Below, piece after piece: positions 6,404 through 25,374 of a DNA stretch of 27,246 bases. Numbering within the stretch: position 1 is the first letter of the stretch; each line of letters starts with the position of its first letter. Source of the DNA: Lachnospiraceae bacterium UBA4317 (GTDB taxonomy: Bacteria > Bacillota_A > Clostridia > Lachnospirales > Lachnospiraceae); the NCBI GenBank assembly GCA_002394525.1, contig DGUF01000183.1, positions 11,567 through 38,812 on the forward strand, in the 5' to 3' direction. A program made the position numbers and the translations under genes. The notes under the pieces are model-generated. The model made no database searches and was not told where the DNA came from. It was given only the letters and a program-made list of their open reading frames with translations.

Positions 6404-7278
6404 TTTCCCGCCTCCCGGAAGAGTCTGATCAGTTCCTCCTTGAGCGCCAGTGCTTCCGGCGCCGCCAGAGAGGCTTCCGTCCTGGGCCGGCCCAGCGGCA
6501 CTCTGTATTCCCGGAGCGACCGGATCGGGCTCTGCTCCACGGCCAGAATACGGGTGGAGAGAAAGATTGCCTCCTCCACATCATGGGTGATGAAGAGCAC
6601 GGTCTTCTGCTCCTTTTCCCACTGGTCCAGGAGCCACTCGCGCATGGACAGGCGGGTCAGGTAGTCCAGCGCTGAAAAGGGCTCATCCAAAAGCAGCAGG
6701 TCCGCCCCTGTCATCAGGGTCCGGGCAAAGGAAGCCCTCTGCCGCATGCCGCCCGACAGCTCCCTGGGAAGCTTGTCTCCCCAGCCGGCCAGTCCGACCT
6801 CCCGCAGAGCCTCCTCCGCCCGGTCATTCATCTCCCTTTCGCCAAGCCCGCCCTGCAGCTCCAGCGGCAGGCGGACATTTTCCGCAACGGTTCTCCAGGG
6901 CAGGAGCAGGTCCTGCTGGGGCATATAACCGCATCGATTATTTTGGGAAAAGATCTCGATCCTGCCGGAGACGGGCTCATTGAGCCGGTTCAGGAGCCGG
7001 AAGATCGTGCTCTTTCCGCAGCCGGAGGGCCCGATCAGGGAGACGAACTCCCCCCGGCGGACTGAGAAGTCCAGGTTCTCGATCAGCGTCAGATCCTCTC
7101 CCGGGTAGGAGAAGGTCACATTCCGGAAGACCGCGGCAGGATTCTGCTCCTCCGCATCCGGAACGGTCTCTCTTCCGGATACGGTTTCTCTTCCGGATTC
7201 GATATCTATTCCGGTACCAGCACCTCTTCCGGCTCCCGCGTTTTTATCAAATGTATTGTCAACTGTCTCCGCGATCAT
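6400..7278 (-). CDS. ABC transporter ATP-binding protein, thiamine precursor uptake (ThiZ-like)
   Basis: ATPase of the importer, of the SsuB/TauB/ThiZ type. Visible motifs in order are Walker A GPSGCGKST, Q-loop YMPQQDLLLPW, signature LSGGMRQRASFARTL, Walker B LLLLDEPFSALD and H-loop FITHDVEEA. About 45 residues precede the ATPase fold. They include a duplicated SGRETV, encoded by a short TTCCGG-containing tandem repeat (about 7150-7230), and are not expected to be catalytic. The start overlaps the tenA stop by ATGA, and the stop overlaps the permease start the same way. Confidence 0.92.
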   Translation of the reverse strand: MIAETVDNTFDKNAGAGRGAGTGIDIESGRETVSGRETVPDAEEQNPAAVFRNVTFSYPGEDLTLIENLDFSVRRGEFVSLIGPSGCGKSTIFRLLNRLNEPVSGRIEIFSQNNRCGYMPQQDLLLPWRTVAENVRLPLELQGGLGEREMNDRAEEALREVGLAGWGDKLPRELSGGMRQRASFARTLMTGADLLLLDEPFSALDYLTRLSMREWLLDQWEKEQKTVLFITHDVEEAIFLSTRILAVEQSPIRSLREYRVPLGRPRTEASLAAPEALALKEELIRLFREAGK

Positions 7279-7988
7279 TTTCTCATCTCCCAGGCCATAT
7301 CCCAGAAGGCCGCCTCGTAGCGGGAGCAGTTGATAAAGATCTCATCCAGATGCTTCTTCTGTTCTTCCGTATATCCCGCCGTCAGCTTCTCTGTCAGGCG
7401 GATAATATCCAGATTTGCCTTGTGATATTCCTCGCAGGCATATCCCTGCACCCACTCGCCGTAAAAAGGATGGCTCTCAGCCTCCGGAAACTCAGCCTTG
7501 ATCTGCCTCGCGATCACTTCATAGCTCAGCGCGCAGGAGAGGATCGCGACAGCCGCCTCGGCCGCCCCGCCCTCATAGGCTTCCCGGATCATATAAGAGG
7601 TGTAGGACAGATTGTCCAGGGACGGCACTGTTGCGGCCGCCTCCTGCTCGGAAATTCCCAGCCTTTTCATATAGCCCCGATGAATGTCCATCTCCCCGTC
7701 CATGATCTGCCGCAGCATGGCCGCGTTATAAGCCATGGCGTCCAGGTCTTTCGCCTTGGCCGCGCCGATCGCGAAAACACGGGCGTAGTCGATCAGATAG
7801 ACATAGTCCTGAAGCATGTAAAAAATAAATTTTTCAGGTTCCAGGCTCCCGTCCGCGATCCCGCGGACAAAGGGGTGGCTGTGGTACCCCTCCCAGATTT
7901 CCTCGGCTGCCCTCAGCAGCCGCTCGGTCATCGGATGCCCGGCGCCTTCGCCGAAGGTATATCCGGCGATCGTCAATGCTGTGTCCAT
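7275..7988 (-). CDS. tenA: TenA-family aminopyrimidine aminohydrolase / thiaminase II
   Basis: TenA hydrolyses aminomethyl-aminopyrimidine, a breakdown product of thiamine, to HMP for thiamine salvage in the cytoplasm. The family features FYMLQDYVYL (Asp61), the candidate nucleophile Cys152 in AILSCALSYE, and a late RYEAAFWDMAWE with the conserved Glu are all visible. The protein is all-helical and 237 aa long. About 17 residues precede the usual start (MTERLLRAA). The longer ATG at 7988 is chosen because AAAGGAG lies eight bases upstream. It is the first gene after the TPP riboswitch and overlaps the ATPase gene. The pairing with an importer fits uptake and processing of thiamine fragments. 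Confidence 0.93.
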   Translation of the reverse strand: MDTALTIAGYTFGEGAGHPMTERLLRAAEEIWEGYHSHPFVRGIADGSLEPEKFIFYMLQDYVYLIDYARVFAIGAAKAKDLDAMAYNAAMLRQIMDGEMDIHRGYMKRLGISEQEAAATVPSLDNLSYTSYMIREAYEGGAAEAAVAILSCALSYEVIARQIKAEFPEAESHPFYGEWVQGYACEEYHKANLDIIRLTEKLTAGYTEEQKKHLDEIFINCSRYEAAFWDMAWEMRK

Positions 7989-8151: not shown

Positions 8152-8281
8152 GAAAAATCATAGCCCGCCGCAGGCGGCTGCCCATCATGGCAATGCAGCC
8201 CTCTGCACGATGTGTCCGTAAGAGAAGCGCTCAAATAAGCGATGTATCCTCCTGCCAGGACTGTCCAAACTATGCTTCCTG

Positions 8282-8376
8282 ATGATCCCTTCGTTGGCAT
8301 TATCCAAATCAGGTTATGCGGGTTACGGCGGTTCAGCCGACTCTCAGCCTGCTCAGGCAAGCACCCCGTGGTCTGT
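8282..8376 (-). ncRNA. TPP (THI-box) riboswitch aptamer
   Basis: Read on the minus strand, the aptamer has GGGGTGC, then GCTGAGAG in the pyrimidine-sensing arm. The strongly conserved CTGATTTGGATAATGCC and the closing GAAGGGAT follow. These match the TPP riboswitch core almost base for base. It lies between a good promoter and a terminator ahead of tenA and the importer genes, so the operon should be shut off when TPP is plentiful. Confidence 0.96.
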
Positions 8377-8384
8377 GATTCCTT

Positions 8385-9943: not shown

Positions 9944-10119
9944 TAATTGTATAATATTAATCTGACAGCACGGGGCGGCCGGTTTTCGCAAAAACTTTCC
10001 GCCTGAGGTACAGCACAGCTGCTCCTCATTTTACAGGAAAGAGCCGCATCTGCGCAACCGCCGTCATTTGATCAGGATTTTTCCGCCTCCCCATCGAGAT
10101 CCACCAGAAAAGGAGACAT

Positions 10120-11469
10120 ATGAGACATCACAGTGCATCCGACATGAAGTACCGACACCCGCAGCAAAGAGGGTTCCTGCGCCGTTTTTTTTACAGCGCC
10201 GCCCTTCTCTTTTCCCTCCTGGCGATCATAAGCGGCGCCGGAGGGTCCTCTCTCTGTGGAAGCTGTACTCTCCCTGCTCTGTTTTGTGTCCGGGCGGAGG
10301 CCTCTCCCCCCTGGAAATATGATTACCGGCTGAGGGGGGACGATGCTTTCCAGGCTCATGCGCGCCAGATCATTGAGACCGGCGTCACGGCCCCGTCCGG
10401 CCAGGGCGAGACCTACTACGCGGGTCCGTCGGATGATGTCCAGGGCATGATCAACATGCTGGGACCGGGCGACACGCTCTATCTGCGCGGCGGTGTCTAC
10501 AGCCGCAAGATCCGCCTCTATGGCGGAGTGCAGGGGCGGGAGGACGCCTATATCACGATCGCCGCCATGCCCGGCGAAGAGGTGATCTTTGACGGCTCCG
10601 GGCTCAACGGCCACGACCAGGACCAGGACGGTCCCTCCATGTTCTGGCTCTACGGCTGCGGCTACGTGCAGCTCACCGGCTTCGAGGTCCGCAACGCGCA
10701 CGGCCGGGACGCCAGCGCCATCCTGCTGGAGCCGGGGACCCACCATGTCGTCGTGAGCGACCTGACGATCCAGAATATCACGACCCCCAGTCCCAAAAGC
10801 GAGGACCACTGTGCCAACGCTATCCTGCTGATGGGCCGCGGCAGCTCCACGATCTCCAACGTTCTCCTCTACCGCAACTATATCCATGACTGCAAGACCG
10901 GCTGGTCCGAGGCGATCTCCGTCGCCGCCAATGTCGCGAATGTCAATGTCGTCGGCAACCGCCTGGACAACACCGGGAACATTGCCATCTGTTTTGCCGG
11001 AAACTACGGGAACGCCCCGTCCTCCGTCGACCGTCCGGTCCACGGCCTGGTCTACGGAAACGTCATCACCAACTGCCACTGCGGCTATGACACCGGTTTC
11101 GCCATCTACGCGGACGGGACCCAGGATGTGGATTTCATCTGCAATACAGTAAAGGACTGCGACGGCGGGGTCGAAGCGGGCGCGGAACAGGGCGGCCACT
11201 CGACGCACAGCATCCTGATCGCCAACAACCTTCTGACCGGCTGCGCCGAAGCCGCTGTGGGGATCGGGACCCCGGGCGGGGGCGGACATGTCCATTCCGT
11301 CACAGTCTACGGCAACCGCTACAGAAATGTGGGATGGCTGAGCGGCGGAGCTTCGATCCTCCGGTTCGGATCCAGCGATGTCAGCACCTACGACAACTAT
11401 TACATCGAGGATGATTCGGAGATGGATCTGCCTGTCTTCGAGACCTATGACAGCCCCGCCCTTCACTGA
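10120..11469 (+). CDS. Secreted right-handed parallel beta-helix protein, polysaccharide-lyase-like
   Basis: Exported protein with a basic N-terminus, a hydrophobic signal segment near residues 28-40 and a likely cleavage site near the Ala-rich VRAEASP. The mature part begins with GETYYAGPSDD and GDTLYLRGGVY, typical of the start of DUF1565 / PL9-type beta-helix domains. About ten coils rich in Asn, Gly and Val follow (for example VSDLTIQNIT, VLLYRNYIHDC, VNVVGNRLDN, LIANNLLTGC, VTVYGNRYRN). The asparagine ladder is visible. AAAAGGAG precedes the ATG by four bases. A catalytic Lys or Ca site cannot be pinned by eye, so substrate and enzymatic activity are unknown; pectate or other uronate polymers are candidates. 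It stands alone, facing the MGMT-like gene. Confidence 0.85.
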   Translation: MRHHSASDMKYRHPQQRGFLRRFFYSAALLFSLLAIISGAGGSSLCGSCTLPALFCVRAEASPPWKYDYRLRGDDAFQAHARQIIETGVTAPSGQGETYYAGPSDDVQGMINMLGPGDTLYLRGGVYSRKIRLYGGVQGREDAYITIAAMPGEEVIFDGSGLNGHDQDQDGPSMFWLYGCGYVQLTGFEVRNAHGRDASAILLEPGTHHVVVSDLTIQNITTPSPKSEDHCANAILLMGRGSSTISNVLLYRNYIHDCKTGWSEAISVAANVANVNVVGNRLDNTGNIAICFAGNYGNAPSSVDRPVHGLVYGNVITNCHCGYDTGFAIYADGTQDVDFICNTVKDCDGGVEAGAEQGGHSTHSILIANNLLTGCAEAAVGIGTPGGGGHVHSVTVYGNRYRNVGWLSGGASILRFGSSDVSTYDNYYIEDDSEMDLPVFETYDSPALH

Positions 11470-11517: not shown

Positions 11518-11664
11518 CTCCGCAGCATGCCGGAGCGCGTAAGTGCGCAGGCATCGCGAACGGATAATTCGCGGAGGCGATTATCTGTTCGCATCACAGG
11601 ATGCTTGTGCTCCGTCACAAGCATCCAGAGGAAAAAATCCTATATCGAAAGGATTTTTTCCTCT
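11518..11664. repeat. Array of four hairpins; includes repeat family B copy 1
   Basis: H1 is an outer stem CTCCGC/GCGGAG (11518-11576) with inner ATGCC/GGCAT. H2 is a 14-bp imperfect stem (11556-11569 with 11579-11592) that competes with H1. H3 is a perfect 11-bp stem GGATGCTTGTG/CACAAGCATCC (11599-11626). H4 is a perfect 15-bp stem (11627-11664) containing AAAAAATCC/GGATTTTTT. The segment 11520-11548 matches 26960-26987. H2 to H4 overlap the 3' end of the MGMT-like coding frame. Between convergent genes the array could act as a bidirectional 3' processing or termination block. Confidence 0.85.
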
Positions 11665-11985
11665 TTCCCACTGGTATTTTTTCAGATCCACCCGGCCGTC
11701 CGGGCAGGGGATCCCCTCTGCCTCCAGCAGCTCAATCTGCCGGTTTCCGCCCCCGAAGGCAAAGGCGGAGGAGACCTCCCCGAACCGGTTCACGACGCGG
11801 AAACACGGGATCCGGTCCGGGTCAGGGTTTACATGCAGAGCATATCCGACGACCCTGGACCAGTGCCGGTTGCCGGCCAGGGCCGCGATCTGACCGTAGG
11901 TGGCGACTTTGCCGGGAGGGATCTGCGCGACCACCTCATAGATTTTTTCAAAGGAATTCTTTTTGTTTTCCATAGTTTTTTTCAC
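11581..11985 (-). CDS. MGMT-like (Ogt/ATL superfamily) DNA alkyl-damage protein with hairpin-encoded tail
   Basis: Small single-domain member of the O6-alkylguanine-DNA alkyltransferase family. The conserved helix-turn-helix part reads IPPGKVATYGQIAALAG, and RVVGYALHVNPDPD leads to the active-site motif IPCFRVVN. The acceptor Cys is present, but the usual PCHRV histidine is Phe. The domain ends normally with DLKKYQWE. It is then extended by about 27 residues encoded entirely by the hairpin array, stopping inside hairpin H2. The GTG at 11985 is preferred because GGAG lies six bases upstream. ATG starts at 11973, 11991, 11997 and 12072 in the same frame have poorer sites. It is divergent from the esterase gene. 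Repair activity is likely but unproven because of the His-to-Phe change. Confidence 0.83.
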   Translation of the reverse strand: MKKTMENKKNSFEKIYEVVAQIPPGKVATYGQIAALAGNRHWSRVVGYALHVNPDPDRIPCFRVVNRFGEVSSAFAFGGGNRQIELLEAEGIPCPDGRVDLKKYQWERGKNPFDIGFFPLDACDGAQASCDANR

Positions 11986-12074
11986 GGGCATCTCCATAAA
12001 ACCAGGGGATCCAATCGCGATCCTGTCTCCCCGTGTCCGGAAAAAGCTTATCACTTCACAAGGAAAGAACATAA

Positions 12075-14905: not shown

Positions 14906-15313
14906 TTATTTCATGGCGGCGACGATTGCATCCAGTTCCTCGTCCGAAGCCTTGCCGGGCTTCCACAGAATATGCTGCCCGTCTCCCTTATAGCGGGGGA
15001 TCACATGCAGGTGGAAGTGGGGGACCGTCTGGCCCGCAGCCTCCTCATTGTTCTGAACAAGATTGGCCCCGTCCGTGTGAAGCCGTTCCTTCATGCGGAT
15101 CGCCATCTGCTGTCCGATCTTCATCGCCCCTGCCGCCCAGTCCGCGGGGATCTCATAGACATTTGCGAAATGCTCCTTGGGGAGAACCAGGGCGTGTCCC
15201 TTTGTTGCAGGTCCAAGATCCAGGATCACGCGGTATTTTTCATCTTCATATAATGTTCTGGAAGGGATCTCGCCATTCGCGATCTTACAAAAAATGCAGT
15301 TCTGATCTTTCAT
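14906..15313 (-). CDS. HIT family nucleotide-binding hydrolase
   Basis: Histidine-triad protein, HINT/PKCI-like, acting on nucleoside phosphoramidates or dinucleotides in the cytoplasm. It starts CIFCKIANGEIPS, whose Cys-x-x-Cys is typical of zinc-binding bacterial members. It continues with the GHALVLPKEHF core and ends with the catalytic triad motif HFHLHVIP near residue 100. Length (135 aa) is normal. The ATG at 15313 has AAGGAGGA within the upstream 32-bp repeat. The mRNA leader is unusually long and structured. Confidence 0.95.
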   Translation of the reverse strand: MKDQNCIFCKIANGEIPSRTLYEDEKYRVILDLGPATKGHALVLPKEHFANVYEIPADWAAGAMKIGQQMAIRMKERLHTDGANLVQNNEEAAGQTVPHFHLHVIPRYKGDGQHILWKPGKASDEELDAIVAAMK

Positions 15314-15520
15314 ACTTCCTCCTTAGTCGACGCGTCTTACGCGGAGACACCCGAGGAGAAATTCGCATTTAAAAGTCTTTCATATATGGACTTTTAAATT
15401 GGCGATTTCTCCGATGGGATAAACGAAGTTTGCGGCGCGCCGACGCAAACTTCGAGTACGAATAAAACGCTATCGAGCGTTTTATTCGTACTTCCTCCTT
15501 AGTCGACGCGTCTTACGCGG
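15313..15520. repeat. Triple-hairpin element between 32-bp perfect direct repeats in the HIT leader
   Basis: A 32-bp sequence containing the HIT ribosome site occurs identically at 15313-15344 and 15489-15520. Between them lie three strong hairpins. A is 15355-15412, with GGAGAAAT and TTTAAAAGTC arms. B is 15424-15454, with a perfect 11-bp stem CGAAGTTTGCG. C is 15456-15491, with a perfect 16-bp stem GTACGAATAAAACGCT and four-base loop. The repeat unit itself carries a small palindrome CGCGT-ctt-ACGCG. The 32-bp identity points to a recent event. Confidence 0.92.
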
Positions 15521-15536
15521 TGTGCAGGTATATTTC

Positions 15537-15565
15537 ATCTTATCATCGGCACTATTTTGCGTCAA
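15537..15565 (-). promoter_or_regulatory. Promoter of the HIT gene
   Basis: Read on the minus strand: TTGACG (15560-15565), 17 bp, TAAGAT (15537-15542). Transcription would start close to the distal 32-bp repeat, so the hairpin element becomes a leader of more than 200 bases. Confidence 0.72.
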
Positions 15566-15591: not shown

Positions 15592-17193
15592 TCACCTGTA
15601 GACAAACTCCATCCGGCCCAGGCGGACATGGTCCCCCTGGTGCATGGTCCTGCTTTCGTTGGGCCTGAGTCTCTCCCCGTTGATCCAGGTCCCGTTGGTG
15701 CTGTTCAGGTCACGGACTGTCATCTTTCCCTCCCGGTCGGTCGAGAATCTGGCATGCATGCGGCTTATACTGCTGTCATCGAGCACAGCGTCCACATAGT
15801 CCCGCATTTTTCCCACCACACAGGGAAGCTCGGTGAGGCTGATCCGCTCCCCTCTGCAGGCTCCGGTGCCGTAGAGTCCCATGGGCTCCCCCGCATCCGG
15901 CCCCAGCAGGCAGGTCTCTCCGGGCAGGGCCAGGGACCGTCCGGGATCCTGCCCGCCGTCGGGACCTCTTTCCGCGGCCGCGGAAAAACCGGAATCACCT
16001 TGAATACCGGTGTAGGGGCTGTATTCATCCCAGCGGACAGGTGGCTTCCCCATAGTTTCTCCGCTGCCGGTATCAATTCCGGATCTGCCGCCATACAGGC
16101 CTTCTCTTCCGGGATTGGCCTCTCCCTTTCTCTTTTCCCTCCCGGCGTCCCCGCCTCTGCGGCCGGCTTCCCCGGCGCCGGCCCTGCCGCGGATCATCCT
16201 GACCAGCAGGATCAATATCAGGGCCGCGCCCGCAAGGGCCAGAAAGCCCCCTCCGGCCCGGGTCAGGAGCAGGGCCTGTTCCGTCAGGCCCTGGAACCTG
16301 CCCGGCAGGACCAGAAGGCCCCCTGCGCCGACCAGGAGGAGACCGGCGGCCAAAAAGCCATAGAGTCCCGGGATGCCCCTTTCCTCCCCGGTATCCGCCG
16401 GGGTCTCCGTGTCTCTTCCCGGAGAGGGACGATCCTCCCTTCCCTCGCGGCCGACAAAGGCCTCCCCGTATTCCGGCACCTGCCGGTTCCTGCCGTCTGC
16501 CTCATAGAAGGGACCTGTATTGGGTCCGGAACCGGCAGGTCCACGGGCAGGGCCGGAAGAAAATACAGGGCCTTCGGGATCCCCTGCCCGTGTGTCCGCA
16601 AAGCCGGGAAAGGATCCGTGCCTGTGTTTCGCCGTCTCCTGTCCGATCCGGATCCCCAGTTCCTCCAGAACCTCCTCCCTGAGCCTGAAGCCGGGCTTCT
16701 CAGCCAGCATGCAGAGTCTGTAGACAAGCGCCGCCGCTCTCTTGTCTTTTCCATCCACCCTGTCCGCCAGGAAGGTGAACAGCCTCTCCCATCCGCCCTC
16801 CTCCACTTCGCCCGGATAGTAGATAAAGGAGCACTCCTGACCCCTGAAATCCACATATATACAGGGCGGATCCAGGACCATATGGGATGCGTCCAGCAGG
16901 TATTCCGTCAGTGTTTTTTCCAGCCTGAGTAGGTCCTCCAGCAGCTTCTCGATATCCGCCCCCCTGATCGGCCTTCTGTCATAAAGGTCCTCCAGGCTCT
17001 GCCGGGAGGTGATATCGTAATACAGATAATCCCGGTTGTCGATACAGCGGCTGCTGCAGGGGAGAAGGCCCCTGATCTGGTTGGCCGCAAGCATCCGGTA
17101 TTGATAATTGTCCCTCAGCTCCCGGGGACATTCCATGACAAGGTAATTGTGTGATGCGTCGCTGTAAAAAGTTCTTTCCTTCTTCTCCTCCAT
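15592..17193 (-). CDS. FHA-domain membrane protein with DUF6382-like N-terminal domain, tad-locus associated
   Basis: N-terminal cytoplasmic domain of about 165 residues resembling DUF6382 (YLVMECP, GLLPCSSRCIDNRDYLYYDIT, LDPPCIYVDFR). A Gly/Pro-rich linker, two membrane segments (about residues 274-296 and 311-334) and a second disordered linker follow. The C-terminal FHA domain carries SSISRMHARF, VRDLNSTNGTWING and HVRLGRMEFVY, the phosphothreonine-binding core. GGGAGGG lies six bases before the ATG. It is last in the tad operon, 223 bp after the small TadE-like frame. FHA domains read Ser/Thr phosphorylation, so it may couple the pilus to a kinase. The domain name is from memory; the FHA call is firm. 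Confidence 0.87.
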   Translation of the reverse strand: MEEKKERTFYSDASHNYLVMECPRELRDNYQYRMLAANQIRGLLPCSSRCIDNRDYLYYDITSRQSLEDLYDRRPIRGADIEKLLEDLLRLEKTLTEYLLDASHMVLDPPCIYVDFRGQECSFIYYPGEVEEGGWERLFTFLADRVDGKDKRAAALVYRLCMLAEKPGFRLREEVLEELGIRIGQETAKHRHGSFPGFADTRAGDPEGPVFSSGPARGPAGSGPNTGPFYEADGRNRQVPEYGEAFVGREGREDRPSPGRDTETPADTGEERGIPGLYGFLAAGLLLVGAGGLLVLPGRFQGLTEQALLLTRAGGGFLALAGAALILILLVRMIRGRAGAGEAGRRGGDAGREKRKGEANPGREGLYGGRSGIDTGSGETMGKPPVRWDEYSPYTGIQGDSGFSAAAERGPDGGQDPGRSLALPGETCLLGPDAGEPMGLYGTGACRGERISLTELPCVVGKMRDYVDAVLDDSSISRMHARFSTDREGKMTVRDLNSTNGTWINGERLRPNESRTMHQGDHVRLGRMEFVYR

Positions 17194-17203
17194 GTTTTTC
17201 CCT

Positions 17204-17417
17204 CCCCTGCAGCGTCACGGACGTTGCTGTCACAGTCCCTTCGGTATGTGCTTCGGTACTGCGATAACAACTTCCGACAATCGTATTCCGATATTTTCGC
17301 CGTTTCACCCGGCTTTTGCATGAACCCCCATGCAAAAGCCCCTCGAATCCGAAGGCTGTGAATAAAAACTCCCGGACCTCTCTCTCGAAGGACGTGTATC
17401 CGTGCCCCTGCAGCGTC
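17204..17417. repeat. 13-bp direct repeats flanking a 188-bp segment before the FHA gene
   Basis: CCCCTGCAGCGTC occurs at 17204-17216, next to the FHA ribosome site, and at 17405-17417, touching the stop of the TadE-like frame. The segment between carries a perfect 11-bp hairpin GGCTTTTGCAT/ATGCAAAAGCC with an eight-base loop (17311-17340) and a repeated CTTCGGTA word. No U-tract or promoter was recognised. Confidence 0.7.
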
Positions 17418-17896
17418 TAAGGCTCCTCCGCGCCGGACGCAGGTCTGGCCCCTGAGGCAAGGTTCAGGATCCTGCGCACTCTGCGGTAATCCCGGGGCGG
17501 GTCCGTCTTCCTCGCCTTTTTCTCAGCATCCAGCCTCCAGGTCCTTTCCCCGTCAAAAACCGGAAGACCAAAGAGCGGAGGCTCCATCTCCCCGCTGCAC
17601 TTCACCCTGATCTCCCTGCCTGAGGAGGCCGCTGTATCCAGACCGGAGAGCATAAACAGCTTCTCCCCCAGCTGCCTGTGGATCTCCTCCGCGCTGACCC
17701 GGTCTGCCTTCCCCTTCTGAATGCTCTGCCGGTAGCTGAGCACATAGGAGTCCTGGGCCAGCACACACCGGTCATAGAGGTAACAGGCCATATAAATGAT
17801 CATCACCAGGATGCATACGACCACTGGCATGATCAGGGCGGCTTCCACCGTAAAATATGCTCCCGCTCCCGCTTTCGGGCCCGCGGCACAGGCACT
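17417..17896 (-). CDS. Small TadE-like pseudopilin; no ordinary start codon in frame
   Basis: The frame encodes the signature YFTVEAALIMPVVV followed by a long membrane helix, MIIYMACYLYDRC, and a hydrophilic C-terminal region of about 110 residues. This is the layout of tad minor pseudopilins matured by prepilin peptidase. The frame is open far upstream, but only as overlap with the prepilin peptidase gene. Between that gene's stop (17899) and TVEAAL it contains no ATG, GTG or TTG. A GTG at 17895 in a different frame would give a plausible basic N-terminus rich in Arg/Lys and would need a -1 shift before TVE. Options are a sequencing indel, a frameshift, or a non-canonical start. The lower bound given is only where overlap ends. 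Confidence 0.65.
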   Translation of the reverse strand, partial: SACAAGPKAGAGAYFTVEAALIMPVVVCILVMIIYMACYLYDRCVLAQDSYVLSYRQSIQKGKADRVSAEEIHRQLGEKLFMLSGLDTAASSGREIRVKCSGEMEPPLFGLPVFDGERTWRLDAEKKARKTDPPRDYRRVRRILNLASGARPASGAEEP

Positions 17897-17898
17897 GT

Positions 17899-18369
17899 TT
17901 ACCGGCTGGCGGCAAGGACCAGGATCCAGGCCAGGCCCGCAAAGGTGAGAAAGGGCATGCGCGTCTTCCCTTTGACTTTTCCAAGTGCCAGTAACAGGAT
18001 CCCGCAGACACAGGTCAGAGACAGGGAGGCCATGAGCAGGATCCAGGCCGGGCCGGGGCCCAGCATGGCCCCGGCTGCCAGAAAGCAGAGCCCGTCTCCT
18101 GATCCGGCGGCCTCCTTTGCGGCTGCGCAGATGAGGAGCAGCAGGATCCCCGGCAGCATTCCCGCGGCGAACAGGATCATATCCAGGCTGCCGTCCGCCA
18201 GGGCCGGAAGATCCAGAACAGCTGCAGCGGCGCCGGCCAGAGCTGACAGGGGGATGCTGATCCTGCGGACCCGGAGGTCCTGCAGGGCACAAATCCCCAG
18301 ATAGACAGAGAACAGGATCAGGCGGCAGACAGCAGTTGCCGCCATCCCTTCCGGTATGAGTCCAGTCAT
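17899..18369 (-). CDS. Prepilin peptidase, A24 family (TadV/CpaA-like), second copy
   Basis: Small membrane aspartyl protease that removes leader peptides from pilins. About five membrane segments are visible. The two catalytic aspartates are in ALQDLRVRRIS near residue 30 and in GSGDGLCFL near residue 92, the GxGD motif. Length (156 aa) is typical of TadV. AGGAGGG lies 11 bases before the ATG; a TTG at 18376 is the alternative start. It sits between a TadE-like gene and the small TadE-like frame, and a different peptidase is encoded at the head of the same locus. Confidence 0.85.
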   Translation of the reverse strand: MTGLIPEGMAATAVCRLILFSVYLGICALQDLRVRRISIPLSALAGAAAAVLDLPALADGSLDMILFAAGMLPGILLLLICAAAKEAAGSGDGLCFLAAGAMLGPGPAWILLMASLSLTCVCGILLLALGKVKGKTRMPFLTFAGLAWILVLAASR

Positions 18370-18400
18370 TGATCAAGTTTCCCTCCTCTCTCCTGCGGCC

Positions 18401-18423
18401 CCCGGATCAGATGCAGATCCGGG
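18401..18423. other. 8-bp stem-loop between TadE-like and prepilin peptidase genes
   Basis: CCCGGATC / GATCCGGG around a seven-base loop lies just upstream of the peptidase ribosome site, inside the 147-bp gap 18370-18516. No U-tract; possibly an mRNA stability element. Confidence 0.45.
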
Positions 18424-18516
18424 CCCGTCTGTATTGCGGATCTCCTGCCAGTGTCCGCCTGCTTCCGCAATTTTATCAGAGCCGGTCTGTCCCGGCGGAT
18501 CCCCGCGGGTCCTTTG

Positions 18517-19452
18517 TCAGTGGGCACCTCCGCATTTGGGGCAGGGGCGCAGGTGCTGCGCCGCCTCCTGCGCGGATTCCTCGTGGGTCGTCCTGGTGAT
18601 CCGCGAGCAGTGAGCCGAGCTGTGAAAGCGGTTTCCGTCCGGCGTGATGAAGACCTTCCCGCTCTTTGACGGATGGCAGTACTCACAGGCATGGTAGATG
18701 GATCCGTCGTTGGCCCTCAGATGGCCCAGGTCCGAGGCATCCACCTCATGGACATGCGGCTTCAGGTAGACGCAGTCCGGGTCCTTGTGATAGACCACCC
18801 CGTTCTCCGCGACGATGACCGATTCCCCACCTGCCTCCTCCCCCGTCCCGCTGTCCGCCGCCCCGGCCCCGCTGCCGATCTCATAGCCGGTCCAGGCATG
18901 CGCGTAATAGGTATTGCGCATGGAAAAATCCGGTCCGCAGATGATGGGGATGAAGGGCCTGGTCCTGTAATCCGCGTGCAGCTCCACAATGCCGCTCTCG
19001 GACAGGATCCGGGACCGCAGAAGGGAAATGCCGGAGCTGCCGCCCCGCAGGCAGGTGTTGTTCATATAGGCGGAGCCCAGATGATTTCTGACCTCCCCCG
19101 CGGCAAAGGCCAGGGACAGAATGTCCCCGCCCGGAATGTCCGGGGCACTCTCCCCGCCCTCTCCAGTTTCCCCCTTCGCGAACTCCCGGTACCAGGCATA
19201 TTCGCAGATTCTGTCCCCTGCCTGCTGCAGGGCCGCGTCGACATTGCTCTGCAGGCGGATCATATCCAGAAGAAAGAGCACATTGAATATAAAAAAGAGA
19301 AAAAGCGGCAATACCAGGGCCGCCTCCACCGTCATGCCGGCCTGCAGTCCTTTTTTCCCGGCAGGACCCGCATCCTTTTTTCTAAAAAGAGCGATGCCTT
19401 TTTGATTCGGCCCCTTTCTGATGTTTTCTGCCCGGAGTAACCTGTTTTCCAT
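18517..19452 (-). CDS. TadE-like protein with two C-terminal Cys/His (zinc-ribbon-like) motifs
   Basis: A pilin-like membrane segment with MTVEAALVLPLFLFFIF begins at residue 40, followed by an extracellular region. The C-terminal third carries two similar modules of pattern Y/F-H-x4-C then C-x2-C. The first runs from VVYHKDPDC to CEYC (about residues 218-260). The second runs from RFHSSAHC to CPKC (about 270-308). These should bind a metal, probably zinc, outside the cell. GGGGAGG lies nine or ten bases before the ATG at 19452; a GTG four codons earlier overlaps the ribosome site. A 19-bp inverted repeat encloses this start. Role: probably minor pilin or adhesive tip of the tad pilus, by family inference. 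Confidence 0.82.
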   Translation of the reverse strand: MENRLLRAENIRKGPNQKGIALFRKKDAGPAGKKGLQAGMTVEAALVLPLFLFFIFNVLFLLDMIRLQSNVDAALQQAGDRICEYAWYREFAKGETGEGGESAPDIPGGDILSLAFAAGEVRNHLGSAYMNNTCLRGGSSGISLLRSRILSESGIVELHADYRTRPFIPIICGPDFSMRNTYYAHAWTGYEIGSGAGAADSGTGEEAGGESVIVAENGVVYHKDPDCVYLKPHVHEVDASDLGHLRANDGSIYHACEYCHPSKSGKVFITPDGNRFHSSAHCSRITRTTHEESAQEAAQHLRPCPKCGGAH

Positions 19453-19488
19453 CGCTGTAATCACCTCCCCAAAAAGGCATCGCTCTTT
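19386..19488 (-). promoter_or_regulatory. Perfect 19-bp inverted repeat enclosing a ribosome site and start codon
   Basis: On the minus strand, AAAGAGCGATGCCTTTTTG (19470-19488) is the exact reverse complement of the arm at 19386-19404. The 65-base loop contains the Shine-Dalgarno GGGGAGG and the ATG of the TadE-like gene. The downstream arm encodes KGIALF. As RNA this is a long stable stem immediately flanking the ribosome site, suited to translational control. Confidence 0.85.
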
Positions 19489-19556
19489 CCGCCGGGTCCC
19501 TGCCGGCCACGGTCCTTTGCGGGCTGCGGGCCGCCTGGTCCTGTCAGTTCCTTCTT

Positions 19557-21053
19557 TCAGTTATATCCCTCGCTCTTGACCAGCTCGAACGAATATCCGA
19601 ACCTGCTCGTGACAGAGGCCGTCATGGAAAAGGCATCCGCGCACCAGTCCATGCAGAACCCGCTGTTGCCCTCCGTCATCCGTATATCCATCTCCATGAT
19701 GTCCATGGTCCGGATACTTTTGACAGAGCTTCCCTCCAGGAACAGGAGTCCCTGCAGGTAATCCGTGTAGAGGAGACCTGTCCCGGCTCCGCTCCCCGCG
19801 ACCGCATCCTCCGGGGCCAGAAGGCCAAGGAAGGAGGTCCGCCAGGTCTCAGGCGTCTTTTGAAGCGGCACCCTCCCCCCGTCAAAGAGGGTGCGCAGGT
19901 CCCGGATGCTCTCCAGGTATGCCCAGGAAAAGAGCAGGACATTTTTGAAGAGCTCCGCCAGCTGGGGGCTGAAGAGGACCAGGGAGACCAGGACCGCCAC
20001 GGCCTGGGCCTGCGCGCCGCGGGCCGTATCGGAAAAAATACTGGCACAGTTGGAGGCCATCCGGATCAGGAAGAGCCTCTCGGCCGTCTTTTCCAGATTT
20101 TCCATATCTGTCTCCCTGCCGCACAGTATGTATTCCAGCTGGTATTTCAGCCTTCCCTTCTCCAGAGGACGGGTGTAGCAGCCGCACTTTTCTCCCAGAT
20201 AGAGGTCAAAAACCGCCTCATCCGCCCGGGGATATCCATGGGAATTGTCCGGACGGAGCCCGTCTCCGTAGTGGATTCCCCTCCCGGACAGGAGATTTGT
20301 GCCAGCCACTGCCTGTGAGATCCCGGACGTATCCCCGAAGATCTGGCGCAGGATGGGAAGCAGGCGGAACTGGTCCATGGCCTCCACGGCCTCCTGCGCA
20401 GTCTCATCTCCCTCCTCTCTTGCTTCTCTGCGCTCCTGTGCTGTGTACTCTTTTTTTGCTTTTTCCTTCGCCTCCCGGATTCCCTCCCGGAGGTCCTCTC
20501 CCGCCTCCTTTCTCTTTTCCTCCCAGACGGCCCCGTCCTCCAGCATGCCCTGCCAGACAGATGTATCCGGCAGGATCTCCGCCAGGACTTCCCCTCCCGG
20601 CGCCGCCGTCATATAGGCAAAGACCTGCTCCCGCAGGGCCTGCGCCCGGTCATCCGCCGCAAAGCGGGCGGCATCCAGTGTCAGGCCGGCCAGGGAGGTC
20701 CCCGTGAAATCCCCCTTCAGGCCGAAACCGGGAGCGGGCTCCGCGGTCAGATTTTTCTCCATATAGGTCTGCAGATGCTGACGCAGGTTTTCCACAGATC
20801 CCGTCCCAGTCCCGTAGGAGGTGTCGATAAAATACAGGTCATACTGGCGGAGGAGTTCGCGGTGGAACTCCCCCAGAACAGAGCGGACCGCAATATTGCC
20901 CGCAGTTTCCGTCTTCATGCGGACCGCGTTGATCCTGGCCCCTTCTACCAGCACCAGGATCAGGGACAGGAGGACCGTGATGGTCAGGGCCAGAAAGACA
21001 GTCAGGTATCCCCCGGCATACAGCTTCTGCTTCGCCCTCTCTTTTTCCTTCAT
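19557..21053 (-). CDS. DUF5702-like TadG-type membrane protein
   Basis: One N-terminal membrane segment (GGYLTVFLALTITVLLSLILVLVEGA, given here only in part as TVFLALTITVLLSLILVL) is followed by a large exported domain of about 450 residues. The transmembrane start, the early REL-LRQYDLYFIDTSYG and the tad location match the DUF5702 family of clostridial tad loci. A charged Glu/Lys/Arg coiled coil is near residues 180-220. The first segment resembles TadG-like proteins that start with a pilin-like helix. GGGGGAGG lies five bases before the ATG, 21 bases after the Flp pilin stop. Its structural role in the pilus is unknown. Confidence 0.8.
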   Translation of the reverse strand: MKEKERAKQKLYAGGYLTVFLALTITVLLSLILVLVEGARINAVRMKTETAGNIAVRSVLGEFHRELLRQYDLYFIDTSYGTGTGSVENLRQHLQTYMEKNLTAEPAPGFGLKGDFTGTSLAGLTLDAARFAADDRAQALREQVFAYMTAAPGGEVLAEILPDTSVWQGMLEDGAVWEEKRKEAGEDLREGIREAKEKAKKEYTAQERREAREEGDETAQEAVEAMDQFRLLPILRQIFGDTSGISQAVAGTNLLSGRGIHYGDGLRPDNSHGYPRADEAVFDLYLGEKCGCYTRPLEKGRLKYQLEYILCGRETDMENLEKTAERLFLIRMASNCASIFSDTARGAQAQAVAVLVSLVLFSPQLAELFKNVLLFSWAYLESIRDLRTLFDGGRVPLQKTPETWRTSFLGLLAPEDAVAGSGAGTGLLYTDYLQGLLFLEGSSVKSIRTMDIMEMDIRMTEGNSGFCMDWCADAFSMTASVTSRFGYSFELVKSEGYN

Positions 21054-21074
21054 CCTGTCCTCCCCCTTTCGCGG

Positions 21075-21278
21075 TCAGACCGCCGGTCCGATCCGGCCGG
21101 CCCGGCCGATGATCTTGTTGCTGTCTGTTGTGATCTTTTTGAATATCTTGTTGACCAGGTCGTTGATCTGCTTTTTGAAGACAATGACCAGGCCGATCAG
21201 GACGACGATGATCAGTATGATCTCCACCGTCCCCATTCCGGATTCATCCCTCCAGAATTCCTTTAAGACTCTACCCAT
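21075..21278 (-). CDS. flp: Flp1-like type IVb major pilin
   Basis: 67-aa prepilin of the Flp1-like family, the main subunit of the tad pilus. A 14-residue charged leader ends in Gly. The processed protein would begin MGTVE, with Glu at position +5, and enters the hydrophobic helix IILIIVVLIGLVIVF. A short basic tail follows. GGAGG is six bases before the ATG. It sits in the usual place after TadC and before the TadE/G genes. The 122-bp gap upstream holds two GCCGGATGTT words and an A/T-rich run but no clear promoter. Confidence 0.92.
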   Translation of the reverse strand: MGRVLKEFWRDESGMGTVEIILIIVVLIGLVIVFKKQINDLVNKIFKKITTDSNKIIGRAGRIGPAV

Positions 21279-21400
21279 ATCCTTCCTCCCTTTCTATGGT
21301 GCTTTTTTGAACAGCTGCCGGCAGAAAAGACCCTCCTTTCTCCAAAAAAACATCCGGCTTCAAAAGTAACATCCGGCAGCAGTGCTTTTGTAACCGGTTC

Positions 21401-23104
21401 TCACATGGCAAAGCTGAAATATGCCGGCACGATAATGATCAGCATCGTGATCCCCAGCATGATCATCATGGGAAAGAGGAGCTTTGTGCCCGCCTCCTCC
21501 CCCAGCTCTCTCGCAAGATTTTTCCTTTCCTCGAAGGCATTCTGCGCCTCCTCCTGCAGTACATCCAGAAGCGTATCATTTCCTCTGCGGAGATTCTGGA
21601 CCAGGAGGCTGCACAGCTTTGTGTACTGGCGCGACCGGCATCTGCGCCCGAAGTGCATGTAGGCTTCGGCCTCAGCCACCCCGCTGTCCAGTTCATTGCA
21701 TACCAGCAGGATCTCCTCTCCCAGATACCGCCCGTTCTCCCTTCTGCCCCGCTTCCTGTCTGCAGGGTCGTTGGTTTGGGCCAGGTAGTCCGCCCCGCAT
21801 TTGTAAAAGATATTCCGGACGCTCATCCCGGCTCCCAGATACAATACGATCCTGCTGATCAGCTGCGGATAGTCGATCGCGAGCTGGCGGCTCCTCTCGA
21901 TGGTCCTCTCGTGGAGTCTGCGGCCCATGATATACCAGGCCGACACACATACCAGCAGGGCCAGCAGCAGAAATCCCGGACTCAGGTCCTCGACCTTTTC
22001 CTCCCAGGAGAGGGCAAGTCCGGCCGCTCCCGACGGGACCACAAAGGTCTGGTCCACGGAGCTCTCCCTCTCAGCCGCCTTCAGGGCCTCCGTGATCTTT
22101 TCTCGCGTCCGGGTCTCCTCATCCCGGACCGGTGCCCGCACTGTAAAGTGCATTTTCTTTTCAAAACGGTAATCGGCATAGGTCAGAAAGACCGTCAGGT
22201 CCACCTGCTCCGCCTGTTCCTCTCCGTAATCGCTGTTAAAGATGCTGCCATCTGTATCCAGGACCGAATAGCGGCTGCTCTCCCAGCCCAGGACAAAGGG
22301 CTCCGCATCCTCCGCCGCGGGCATGCTGAGCGGATACCGGATCTCCGCCGGGTCCCGGTTCTCACCCAGCAGGCAGCCGGGATACTGGTCCAGGATCTCC
22401 TGCGCCCGCGCCTGCGCCTCCTGCCAGGTCAGCTGCCGGGCATGGACCGTGAAGGAATATGTTCCGTAATCCTTCTTTTCCTCCTGTTTTCCTTTTTCTT
22501 CTTTCAGGAAAGAATCTTGTCCGGAGGAAGTTCTCCCGGAGGACACTTCCCCGGGGGATGTTTCCCCGGACTCCTCTTTCCCGGAGGATGCTGCCCCGGA
22601 CGGAAGCAGGGCTTTTGCTCCTGCTCCCTCCTCTTCCCGGACAGGTCTTGCCAGCAGGCTGACCCTCCGGTCCTCCCCTCCGGCGGGGGCCCTCTCTATG
22701 GTCCCGTCCTCCCTCAGAAGGCCGGAGCGCAGGGACGCGAAGTGGAGCGCCCCCGCCAGCGTGATCCCGGCGATGATCAGGAGCAGGAGTTTCTCGGCCC
22801 TTTCTATCCTGTACAGGACTTCCCTGCGGCGGGCTTTCTGGACCGGATACAGAACGGCCAGATCGCTGCGCAGGCCCTCCTCTCCCGGAATGGGAAGCTC
22901 CCGGCCTCCGCGCCGGAGTTTTTCCCGGAATTCATACAGCTTTCTGCACAGAAAGACAGCCATTCTCCTCAGCGGCAGCAGGACGGGGGGATCCCGGGCA
23001 AAGGCCGGCACCTCCTCTCTGCGGGCCAGGACCCCCAGGGCCAAGAAGCCTCCCGCGAGCACAATATATAAGCCGGAATACAGCAGCCCTGTCACCTTGT
23101 TCAT
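21401..23104 (-). CDS. tadC: TadC-like type II/IV secretion inner-membrane protein with large extracytoplasmic domain
   Basis: The C-terminal 180 residues are a TadC-type T2SF domain. They hold the cytoplasmic helices QLAIDYPQLISRIVLYLGAG and FEERKNLARELGEEAGTKLLFPM, then a final membrane segment. Before it lie two membrane segments (about residues 6-27 and 108-126), a Ser/Gly/Glu low-complexity stretch encoded by CCGGA-rich repeats (22505-22620), and a domain of about 150 residues probably outside the membrane. A third membrane segment precedes the T2SF part. Ordinary TadC is about 300 aa, so about 250 residues are additional. GGAGGAG lies six bases before the ATG. It follows tadB by 39 bp. 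Function in pilus assembly is from family and order. Confidence 0.85.
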   Translation of the reverse strand: MNKVTGLLYSGLYIVLAGGFLALGVLARREEVPAFARDPPVLLPLRRMAVFLCRKLYEFREKLRRGGRELPIPGEEGLRSDLAVLYPVQKARRREVLYRIERAEKLLLLIIAGITLAGALHFASLRSGLLREDGTIERAPAGGEDRRVSLLARPVREEEGAGAKALLPSGAASSGKEESGETSPGEVSSGRTSSGQDSFLKEEKGKQEEKKDYGTYSFTVHARQLTWQEAQARAQEILDQYPGCLLGENRDPAEIRYPLSMPAAEDAEPFVLGWESSRYSVLDTDGSIFNSDYGEEQAEQVDLTVFLTYADYRFEKKMHFTVRAPVRDEETRTREKITEALKAAERESSVDQTFVVPSGAAGLALSWEEKVEDLSPGFLLLALLVCVSAWYIMGRRLHERTIERSRQLAIDYPQLISRIVLYLGAGMSVRNIFYKCGADYLAQTNDPADRKRGRRENGRYLGEEILLVCNELDSGVAEAEAYMHFGRRCRSRQYTKLCSLLVQNLRRGNDTLLDVLQEEAQNAFEERKNLARELGEEAGTKLLFPMMIMLGITMLIIIVPAYFSFAM

Positions 23105-23143
23105 ATCAGTCTCCTCCTCTCCCTTCCCCTTTCTTTCGCAGCC

Positions 23144-23929
23144 CTACAGCTCGATCTCCATGATCCTGTCTGAAAGCAGGACTGCCAACAGATAAGCTGC
23201 AAGACAGCCTGTCATAAATACGATCCCTCCCGCATTGTGATAGAGGACATCAAAAAAGCCCTCCGTGGACACGCCCAGATAAAAAATGATAAAAAAGGGC
23301 ACGATATCCATGATCTTCTGCTCAAACCGTCTGCTGCTGAGCAGGATCTCTATCTCTGTGTCGATCTCCATGCGGTCCCGGATCAGGGAAGCCGTCCGGT
23401 TCAGGATCTCCGGCAGGTTTCCGCCGCTCTTTCTGGCTATGGAAAAGACCTCGGCAAACTCCCGGATCTCCTCTATGCGCCAGCGGGCCGCAAAATCCCC
23501 CAGCAGCTTTTCCAGGGAGATCCTGTTTTCAAGGCCCCGCACGATCCTGTCCATCTCCTTTGTGATCATGGCCCGCTCCCCGAACTGGAAGGCCATCTCC
23601 CGCCGGCATTCGGCAAAGGCGTTTTCCGCGGAATATCCCGCCTTGAGCGCCGTGACGATCGCCGCCAGGGCCTCCCGGAACTGGCCGGACAGCTCCCTCT
23701 TGTCCTTTTCTTCCTTTTCTCTGCATCTCCTTTTATAGTAGGGGAGGAGCAGGGGGCACAGAAAGACCGCCGCCAGCGGGGAATCGTAAAAAAGGTAAGC
23801 GACCACGCCGATCAGGACCGCCCCCTCCAGAAGAAACTGCGCGTGGTCCGGAAATCTGATCCGGCTCCAGCGTCCGCCCTTCTGCCCCCCGTCTCTCCGC
23901 TCTCTTTTCCCCTTCATTTTTCCTTTCAT
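23144..23929 (-). CDS. tadB: TadB-like type II secretion F domain protein
   Basis: Inner-membrane platform protein of the tad machine. A basic N-terminus precedes two close membrane segments (LLEGAVLIGVVAYLF and SPLAAVFLCPLLLPYY). The T2SF helices LSGQFREALAAIVTALKAGYS and FAEVFSIARKSGGNLPEIL follow, and two C-terminal membrane segments end it. The ATG at 23929 is chosen because GAGGA precedes it by four or five bases. A TTG at 23980 would add 17 residues that do not look like the family. It is 85 bp after tadA; that gap contains a 15-bp palindrome, GATCCCATTGGGATC (23964-23978). Confidence 0.9.
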   Translation of the reverse strand: MKGKMKGKRERRDGGQKGGRWSRIRFPDHAQFLLEGAVLIGVVAYLFYDSPLAAVFLCPLLLPYYKRRCREKEEKDKRELSGQFREALAAIVTALKAGYSAENAFAECRREMAFQFGERAMITKEMDRIVRGLENRISLEKLLGDFAARWRIEEIREFAEVFSIARKSGGNLPEILNRTASLIRDRMEIDTEIEILLSSRRFEQKIMDIVPFFIIFYLGVSTEGFFDVLYHNAGGIVFMTGCLAAYLLAVLLSDRIMEIEL

Positions 23930-24014
23930 AATTTCCTCGTATCTGTTCAGCACCCCGCGCTGAGATCCCATTGGGATCAATCTGCATACCAGAAAACACT
24001 GCCGGGCATTTTCG

Positions 24015-25250
24015 TCAGAGCGGCGGCCATTTCACTCCCGCCATGGCGAGCTTGCCCCTGGAGGAGAGGGAGTTCTCCGCCTCCCATCTTCCCTGGATCC
24101 GGCCGCCCTGCTCCGCGGTCTCCCGGAAGCGAAAGAGCGGGACCGTCACGATGCGGCCGTCCTCCATCCCGGTGACCTCACAGATCTCCAGAAGCTTCCT
24201 GCTCCGGTCCCGGAGCCTGCCAAGGTGGACGATCACATCGATCGCCGAGGCCAGCTGGCCGCGGATGGCCGGCAGCGGAAGCTCCATCCCCATGAGGATC
24301 ATGGTCTCCAGCCTGGCCAGCATATCGCGGGCGCTGTTGGCGTGCCCCGTACTCAGAGATCCGTCATGTCCTGTATTCATAGCCTGGACCATATCAATGG
24401 CCTCGCTCCCCCTGACCTCTCCGACGATGATCCGGTCCGGCCTCATGCGCAGGGCCGACCGGATCAGGTCCCGTATGCTGATGGGCCGGCAGCCTTCCAC
24501 ATTGGCATTTCTCGCCTCCAGCCTGACCAGATTGTCGATGTGCCTGATCTGCAGCTCGGCGTTGTCCTCGATCGTGATGACCCTCTCATCCGCCGGAATG
24601 AATTCCGACAGGGCATTGAGAAAGGTGGTCTTTCCCGATCCCGTCCCGCCGCTGATAAAGATGTTGTAGCCCGCCAGGACCAGGCAGCGCAGGAAGGAGA
24701 CGATCTCTTCGGAGACCGAGCCCAGGGCCAGCAGGTCCTCCATCAGGATCGGCCGGTCCGGGAAGCGGCGGATCGTGACGATCGGCCCGTTCAGGGCCAC
24801 GGGGGGCAGGACCACGTTGACGCGGTCTCCGTTTGCCAGCCTGGCATCCACGATCGGTGTCGATTCATTGACGACCCTGTTGCAGGCGGAGACGATCTGC
24901 TGCACGACATCCTCCAGCTTCTCCCTGGAGACAAAGGTCCTGTCCGTCCTCAGGATCCTCCCGCCCTGCTCGATAAAGACCGCGTCCGGACCGTTGATCA
25001 TGATCTCGGTGACAGAGGGGTCTTCGATCAGCTCCTGGAGGATGTCCAGTCTGCGGATGGTGTTGAAAAGCTCCAGGCGCATCTGCTTCATCTCGTCCAG
25101 CGACAGCCCCGTTGCCCTCTTCGCGCGGATGATCTCCTCGTCGATCAGGCCCAGGACCTCCTCATCCTCAACGCTTCTGGAAAAATCGATCCCCCGCATG
25201 ATCGCGCCGTGGATCTCATCCCTGACCTCGGTATAGACCTGTGCCGCCAT
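24015..25250 (-). CDS. tadA: Tad pilus assembly ATPase TadA/CpaF
   Basis: Hexameric secretion ATPase that powers pilus assembly at the cytoplasmic face of TadB/TadC. The N-terminal helical region contains EIMINGPDAVFIEQGG. Walker A GGTGSGKTT is near residue 200-207, then the Asp box ITIEDNAELQ, Walker B RIIVGEVRG near 275, and the His box DGSLSTGHANS. Length (411 aa) is typical. The ATG at 25250 has AAGGAG five bases upstream; a GTG 12 codons earlier falls in a tandem repeat and is less likely. It follows the tadZ-like gene by 120 bp. Confidence 0.96.
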   Translation of the reverse strand: MAAQVYTEVRDEIHGAIMRGIDFSRSVEDEEVLGLIDEEIIRAKRATGLSLDEMKQMRLELFNTIRRLDILQELIEDPSVTEIMINGPDAVFIEQGGRILRTDRTFVSREKLEDVVQQIVSACNRVVNESTPIVDARLANGDRVNVVLPPVALNGPIVTIRRFPDRPILMEDLLALGSVSEEIVSFLRCLVLAGYNIFISGGTGSGKTTFLNALSEFIPADERVITIEDNAELQIRHIDNLVRLEARNANVEGCRPISIRDLIRSALRMRPDRIIVGEVRGSEAIDMVQAMNTGHDGSLSTGHANSARDMLARLETMILMGMELPLPAIRGQLASAIDVIVHLGRLRDRSRKLLEICEVTGMEDGRIVTVPLFRFRETAEQGGRIQGRWEAENSLSSRGKLAMAGVKWPPL

Positions 25251-25260
25251 ATCCGCTCCT

Positions 25261-25374
25261 TCCTCCGGCGTCTTCCGCGTCCTCACTTCTTCTCATCCCT
25301 CCGGCTGCAACTTCCCGCGTCTGCACTTCTTCGCATTTCCCGGCCACATCTTCCGCGTCCATACTTCTTGTCAT
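25261..25374. repeat. Three degenerate 36-39 bp tandem repeats before tadA
   Basis: Units at 25261-25296, 25298-25336 and 25337-25374 each contain CTTCC(C)GCGTC followed two or three bases later by ACTTCTT and ending in CAT. On the minus strand each unit begins ATGxxAAGAAGT. The first of these ATGs overlaps the stop of the tadZ-like gene (ATGA). They fill the whole gap and could encode a short out-of-frame peptide overlapping the tadA start. Confidence 0.65.

Follow-up and report, generated by a model that had tools for sequence, protein, structure and literature searches.

On the minus strand of the window (the whole stretch of DNA analysed, 27,246 nucleotides) lies a gene for a HIT-domain protein whose 5' leader contains an array of hairpins (Table 1). 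The array is bracketed by a direct repeat (15309-15344 and 15485-15520; 36 nt, 97% identity, spacing 176), the core of which, from 15313 on, is identical at 32 of 32 positions. The earlier note had described this perfect 32-bp repeat with its Shine-Dalgarno (SD) sequence and three strong stems between its copies, and both are present in the sense of the HIT gene: at 15455-15492 a perfect stem of 17 bp, at 15424-15454 one of 14 nt (93%), and at 15355-15412 a long one of 20 nt (75%) whose 11-bp core is perfect. A fourth hairpin, CGCGT-AAG-ACGCG (hp4), had been overlooked; it lies inside the direct repeat, which is therefore more than a copy of the initiation region. The two copies of the repeat differ at one position only, within the start codon of HIT: the proximal copy reads ATG and the distal one ACG, so that the distal SD is followed by no start codon at that place. 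The sense RNA of the leader has a predicted folding energy of -91.4 kcal/mol, against -56.1 for shuffled sequences (sd 4.1, z -8.5, equalled by 0 of 200 shuffles). The promoter that the note had placed just upstream was recovered as well, and by eye a promoter-like site precedes the HIT gene in nine of the 11 closest relatives (none was seen in L003 and L010); the leader is presumably transcribed. Elsewhere in the window, an FHA/DUF6382 protein is encoded at 15592-17193, beside a minus-strand cluster (17417-25286) with TadE-like, DUF5702, T2SSF and T2SSE proteins, and a TPP riboswitch (8269-8378, minus strand, 64.9 bits) has TENA/THI-4 (7275-7988) and NMT1/THI5-like (4224-5420) genes beyond it along the minus strand.

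Table 1. Features of the array in front of the HIT gene, and the second copy of the element in the window
Feature	Position	Strand	Evidence
HIT-domain protein gene	14906..15313	-	PF01230, E 2.2e-25
Element, hp1 to hp4, 168 bp	15324..15491	-	Model R1, 180.3 bits (this copy belongs to the R1 training set)
hp1, 16-bp palindromic stem, loop CGAT	15456..15491	-	Stem search, fold and helix 1 of the alignment
hp2	15424..15454	-	Stem search and covariation
hp2 loop	15436-15444	-	9 nt complementary to 15326-15334
hp3, optional inner stem ATTTAAAAGTC/GACTTTTAAAT	15350..15418	-	Stem search and covariation
hp4, 3' arm in pseudoknot with the hp2 loop	15326..15348	-	Covariation and complementarity tests
Proximal SD of HIT (AGGAGGAA), 3' site copy	15316..15323	-	8/8 match with the 5' copy
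Distal SD-like copy (AAGGAGGAA), then GTACG	15492..15500	-	Direct-repeat comparison
Lone hp4 copy, interpreted as the tail of a truncated unit before it	15502..15520	-	21/22 identity to the 3' end of the element
Promoter-like site of HIT	15537..15565	-	TTGACG-17-TAAGAT with TG, 9/12
Second element copy, short-hp3 type	11527..11663	-	Model R1, 82.0 bits, E 1.8e-17 (outside the R1 training set)

The array recurs at loci other than HIT. A DNA search of the genomes of 12 HIT relatives gave matches at E <= 10 in all of them; in seven (G001 to G005, G008 and G009) the best match is strong, with an E of 3.5e-6 or lower, and a copy at an unrelated locus of G002 is 86% identical over 189 nt (E 6e-56). 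The 20 stretches that were fetched mostly show the order hp1, hp2, hp3 with or without its inner stem, and hp4, followed by purines that are often SD-like; across copies hp1 is a near-perfect palindrome with the loop CGAT or similar. Exceptions are L104, which lacks hp4, L106, which lacks most of hp1, and L097, in which hp4 is disturbed. Two covariance models were built, R1 from 14 copies, the window copy included, and R2 from 106 matches. R1 matched 31 of the 61 genomes of the genus group at E <= 1e-3 (at most 46 candidates scored per genome); it matches G010 and G011, both weak in the DNA search, and in the genus-group search gave no match at E <= 0.001 in G006, G007 and G012. A deeper search with R1 in two genomes returned 71 matches (G044) and 47, a few of them antisense, and eight genomes hold 34 to 71 matches each. 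At greater distances, matches were obtained in 32 of 299 genomes of the family group (R1, E <= 1e-4, nine candidates scored per genome), in 12 of 295 of the order group (R2, eleven candidates per genome) and in one of the 40 genomes of other HIT loci (R2). Tandem arrays of the element have a period of 142-152 bp. Patterns of hp1 gave no match in viral contigs. In G044, stretches with hp3 and hp4 alone adjoin full copies (L180:4518-4577 and 4794-4847; L188:7646-7708), and a Clostridiales-1 RNA (RF01699, 75.8 bits) occupies L090:2954-3134, some 1.1 kb away from an element copy.

A search of named records found 145 HIT orthologues, of which the best 80 were kept; 11 of them share 82-93% protein identity with the HIT protein of the window and come from nine records titled Lachnospiraceae, one Eubacteriales MAG and one isolate titled Sarcina sp. 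DSM 11001. None of the 80 loci carries the element in the HIT leader (R1, 815 kb, E <= 0.01); the single match, in L001, lies 2.6 kb from the HIT gene, and the scan doubles as a background control. The leaders of HIT orthologues and the recurrence of the hairpins in Lachnospiraceae genomes were two of the checks put forward in the earlier note, which had suggested a non-autonomous mobile element; with hairpins that recur by the dozen elsewhere and an element missing from 80 of 80 HIT leaders of relatives, both comparisons bear the suggestion out. A methylguanine methyltransferase-like gene (11581-12072, minus strand), which has a methylguanine-methyltransferase DNA-binding domain, carries the second window copy at its 3' end, and its reading frame continues into the element; at 10072-11466, near this copy, gene calling favoured a plus-strand gene.

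The boundaries of the element were examined in 29 pairs of copies that are at least 93% identical (up to 99.2%) at different loci of one genome. All 29 pairs have only 1-5 nt in common before hp1, and 26 have 0-5 nt in common after hp4, the other three sharing 8, 8 and 14 nt. The two most alike copies, L150 and L151, have in common a 14-nt 3' flank that includes the start codon and not their 5' flank, an outcome not expected from simple duplication. The ends bear no terminal inverted repeats: the mean best end identity is 6.0 of 18 against 6.3 in shuffles, and among 147 copies none reaches 14 of 18, the best being 9. Within one copy, the 8 nt in front of hp1 and the 8 nt that follow hp4 agree at 4.75 of 8 positions on average, against 3.99 in shuffles (0 of 2000 as high; 118 non-tandem copies); agreement at 7-8 of 8 is seen in 22 of these 118 copies, where shuffles give 4.3 on average and 12 at most. 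The shared flank, of 8-9 bp, is commonly the SD, and the site copies are imperfect in most copies; the excess is weaker in G044 taken alone (24 of 2000 shuffles as high), and the flanks of the second window copy match at 4 of 8, that is, without a site copy. L089 has AGGAGGGAAGTAT on both sides of the element where the related site of G007 has a single SD, a comparison between species at about 77% identity in which the intergenic stretches are too diverged for an exact junction. A comparison of the flanks of 120 copies with 275 kb of G007 placed the two flanks together in a single stretch for six copies, which come from four places; the clearest site was obtained for a G002 copy, and the same 275 kb contained no clean empty site for a G005 copy. 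No empty site was found at the level of strains, the comparison with G007 being between species.

These comparisons also bear on the 32-bp repeat, which the earlier note had put down to a duplication of the initiation region. Upstream of 10 of 147 copies there is a second occurrence of the final 22 nt of the element, with at least 18 of 22 positions matching; six of these copies are in tandem arrays, the tail stands by itself upstream of the window copy (21 of 22), L185 and L197, and L256 has a 3' half. From this tail-only recurrence together with the tandem cases, the preferred reading of the repeat of the window is a copy of the SD together with the hp4 tail that an earlier unit left behind. 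About 19 bp of the repeat are thus element sequence and the site copy proper would amount to some 8-9 bp around the SD, which is at odds with a 32-bp target duplication; the element itself measures 168 bp from hp1 to hp4, not the 144 bp given in the earlier note.

The position of the element relative to genes was recorded in two sets of copies. In the wider draws (37 best-scoring copies from 36 genomes, taken from the family- and order-level draws and the genomes of other HIT loci, with L234, L238 and the G005 copy L282 left out here and in later counts), a start codon with an ORF of at least 50 codons lies within 31 nt in 32 copies and 9-13 nt past the element end in 26; among the five counted misses, L281 and L291 have an SD and an ATG by eye. 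In the genus-level draw with the window (106 independent loci, genes from a crude codon-usage caller), the downstream gene has the same sense as the element in 80 of 103 cases (p 1.5e-8) and is antisense in 23; both neighbours have the same sense in 59 and the opposite one in 15. Here the start is 8-12 nt away in 22 of 80, and many copies lie at a long distance from any start codon. A scan of 30 of the 31 downstream proteins prepared (that of L243 being left out) assigned Pfam families to 27 of them at E <= 1e-8, nearly all different; no common function emerged among the 30 proteins scanned against Pfam. The genes include those for S-adenosylmethionine synthetase, phenylalanyl- and arginyl-tRNA synthetases, glutamine synthetase, phosphofructokinase and adenylosuccinate lyase. 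The place next to the SD may stem from a choice of target or from the survival of harmless insertions, the latter being plausible because the SD is retained. According to the gene caller, the upstream gene ends 6 nt inside the element in 12 of 120 copies (L107, L100 and L168 among them), its stop codon being supplied by the GAGTGA of hp1. By eye, one frame is free of stops from the hp1 GTG onward in L154 and L099 and could give small ORFs such as have been reported for large BOX elements.

Conservation of the fold was assessed in an alignment of 106 distinct copies, which was fitted to the model and is hence biased towards the model fold: 95.4% of its cells are paired, where shuffles give 74.6% and sliding the partners never more than 48.0%. 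Changes on both sides were found in 49 of 60 pairs, a number reached by 0 of 500 shuffles, and in 15 of the 16 pairs of helix 1 (hp1). In addition, the hp2 loop and the 3' arm of hp4 are complementary, a pairing that lies outside the covariance model. The longest complement between the two averages 7.57 nt, against 6.18 when arms are exchanged between copies (maximum 6.71 of 500; 94 unique). With tighter windows the values are 7.66 against 6.04 shuffled (maximum 6.52) for the 106 copies and 8.39 against 6.44 for 28 copies of the wider, family-level draw, with 0 of 1000 shuffles as high in either case, and two control strands gave no excess complementarity. Four aligned pseudoknot pairs, whose columns also belong to hp2 and hp4, are paired in 82.6% of cells, the value being 77.8% for shuffles (0 of 500) and 26-51% for slid partners, and two of five measures taken on them are not above the shuffles (159 and 112 of 500). 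The shuffles in all these tests leave the kinship between copies in place. In the window the pseudoknot is a match of 9 nt with one G-U pair. The four hairpins and the pseudoknot between the hp2 loop and hp4 show compensatory change.

Candidate mobilisers were scored by the presence of protein families in draft genomes of unstated completeness, where an absence is weak evidence. Y1 is missing from two of eight high-copy genomes, G042 and G044, the latter with 71 matches, and gave nine and eight matches in G006 and G012, both without a match to the model. RVT_1 is missing from five of 13 high-copy genomes (G044, G001, G056, G155 and G121, all drafts), and among 14 high-copy drafts IS256 is missing from 11, DDE_Tnp_1 from four and IS110 from six. 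None of the five tracks copy number in these drafts, and all were set aside; the high-copy drafts that lack RVT_1 also tell against a retroposed, RT-mediated element. Autonomous copies, split into two halves by a gene, were looked for in the fetched loci; the one candidate pair, in L190, is 138 bp apart and has no gene-sized insert.

We therefore propose, with a probability of roughly 0.8, that the array in front of the HIT gene is one member of a Lachnospiraceae repeat family that is non-autonomous, dispersed and apparently mobile, its units of about 115-170 bp having four hairpins and a pseudoknot. The mobility of the family is well supported and is the best reading because of the dispersal of the copies, their shared boundaries and their variable sites; the interpretation given in the earlier note is, as a whole, partly supported. 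The element would insert at purine-rich sites, very often the SD of a gene, probably by a process that duplicates the site and leaves a copy of 8-9 bp on each side. The SD would thereby stay in place before the start codon, and insertion would be tolerated even ahead of housekeeping genes. At the HIT gene, the element would have entered the 5' leader beside the tail of an older unit, perhaps by a recent transposition, giving rise to the 32-bp repeat. The compensatory change in the element exceeds what an ordinary MITE needs and counts against this explanation.

Other explanations have to be weighed against it. A purely local event, in which a tandem duplication was followed by the growth of hairpins through template switching, would account for the occurrence of a 32-bp direct repeat and a perfect hairpin at one place; the same element stands at unrelated loci of other genomes, and the G002 copy described above rules out a duplication at HIT only, so that we give this alternative practically no weight. 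More room is left, on our estimate, for spread by recombination between SD-like ends, a tentative variant of the preferred reading with which its odds overlap: a circle or fragment made up of an SD and hp1 to hp4 would recombine with the SD of a gene, with no transposase involved. SD-like sequence on both flanks, the resemblance of the first bases of hp1 to a start region, the tandem arrays and the L150/L151 pair with its common 3' flank would suit such a route; homology is below 10 bp in most copies and the flank similarity is specific to each copy, which speak against it.

A regulatory reading starts from the RNA. The family could be first of all a class of cis-regulatory leader RNAs in which the pseudoknot by the SD would control translation and the copies would form a regulon; the conserved pseudoknot adjoining the SD and the wider-draw copies that end 9-13 nt before a start codon favour it. 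However, the downstream proteins have no common theme, the HIT leaders of relatives are without the element, and at genus level the copies often stand far from the start, with nearly a quarter antisense, so that we consider this reading unlikely. The RNA may nevertheless have a regulatory role, because its fold is so strongly conserved. The decoy ribosome site suggested in the earlier note would be the distal SD, after which ACG stands in place of a start codon. Mobility and regulation might also be combined, in a doubtful scheme, as a transposing pseudoknotted RNA that inserts at SDs in gene orientation, copies the SD so that the gene survives and puts a single post-transcriptional control point in charge of dozens of unrelated genes, some of them essential, perhaps via a structured RNA or single-stranded DNA intermediate. 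The control point would then be, as an equally speculative part of that scheme, a ligand, a protein or a small RNA that recognises the fold.

The repeat family is absent from Rfam. At the gathering threshold, none of the 4227 families of Rfam 15 matches the element, the TPP riboswitch being the only match in the window; the microRNA-type matches found below threshold on the element (window stretch and seven loci) are chance matches. No such family is named in titles and abstract openings of the literature searched, a coverage that takes in a minority of subscription papers and no bioRxiv preprints. A structured repeat outside Rfam reaches tens of copies in some genomes of the Lachnospiraceae, which are major gut and rumen bacteria. 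If mobile, it makes the core genes of related species differ in their translation-initiation regions and can mislead the annotation of start sites; if its RNA acts, the copies amount to a ready-made regulon. The family combines traits in an unusual way, and this combination, a conserved pseudoknot and a position abutting the SD with no terminal inverted repeats, makes the mobilising mechanism a testable question.

Among known systems, REP/REPIN elements are dispersed palindromes of high copy number associated with RAYT (Y1) transposases. The Lachnospiraceae family resembles them in its dispersed palindromes and high copy number and differs in its longer unit with four hairpins and in the lack of Y1 in G044 and G042. 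Some riboswitches are pseudoknot leader RNAs, and here too a pseudoknot stands beside the SD within a leader; unlike riboswitches, the family has variable sites, no common downstream function and no Rfam match. With MITEs, as their features are given in the text of PMC3049150, it shares a short, non-autonomous, highly paired and dispersed sequence, flanked in part of the copies by short and mostly imperfect copies of the site, whereas it has no terminal inverted repeats and shows compensatory change throughout the RNA fold. We file it among dispersed non-autonomous repeats, the closest kind being BOX of Streptococcus pneumoniae, a small interspersed modular repeat with more than 100 copies per genome and predicted RNA stem-loops, almost absent from most related species, with modules in tandem and, as reported there, boxA, boxB and boxC modules and terminal inverted repeats (PMC3049150); the word pseudoknot does not occur in the main text of that paper. 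On the text of this one source, the two have in common a small interspersed modular build, stem-loops, tandem units, many copies and a near absence from most related species, whereas the Lachnospiraceae family lacks the terminal inverted repeats of BOX, has a pseudoknot and often abuts an SD.
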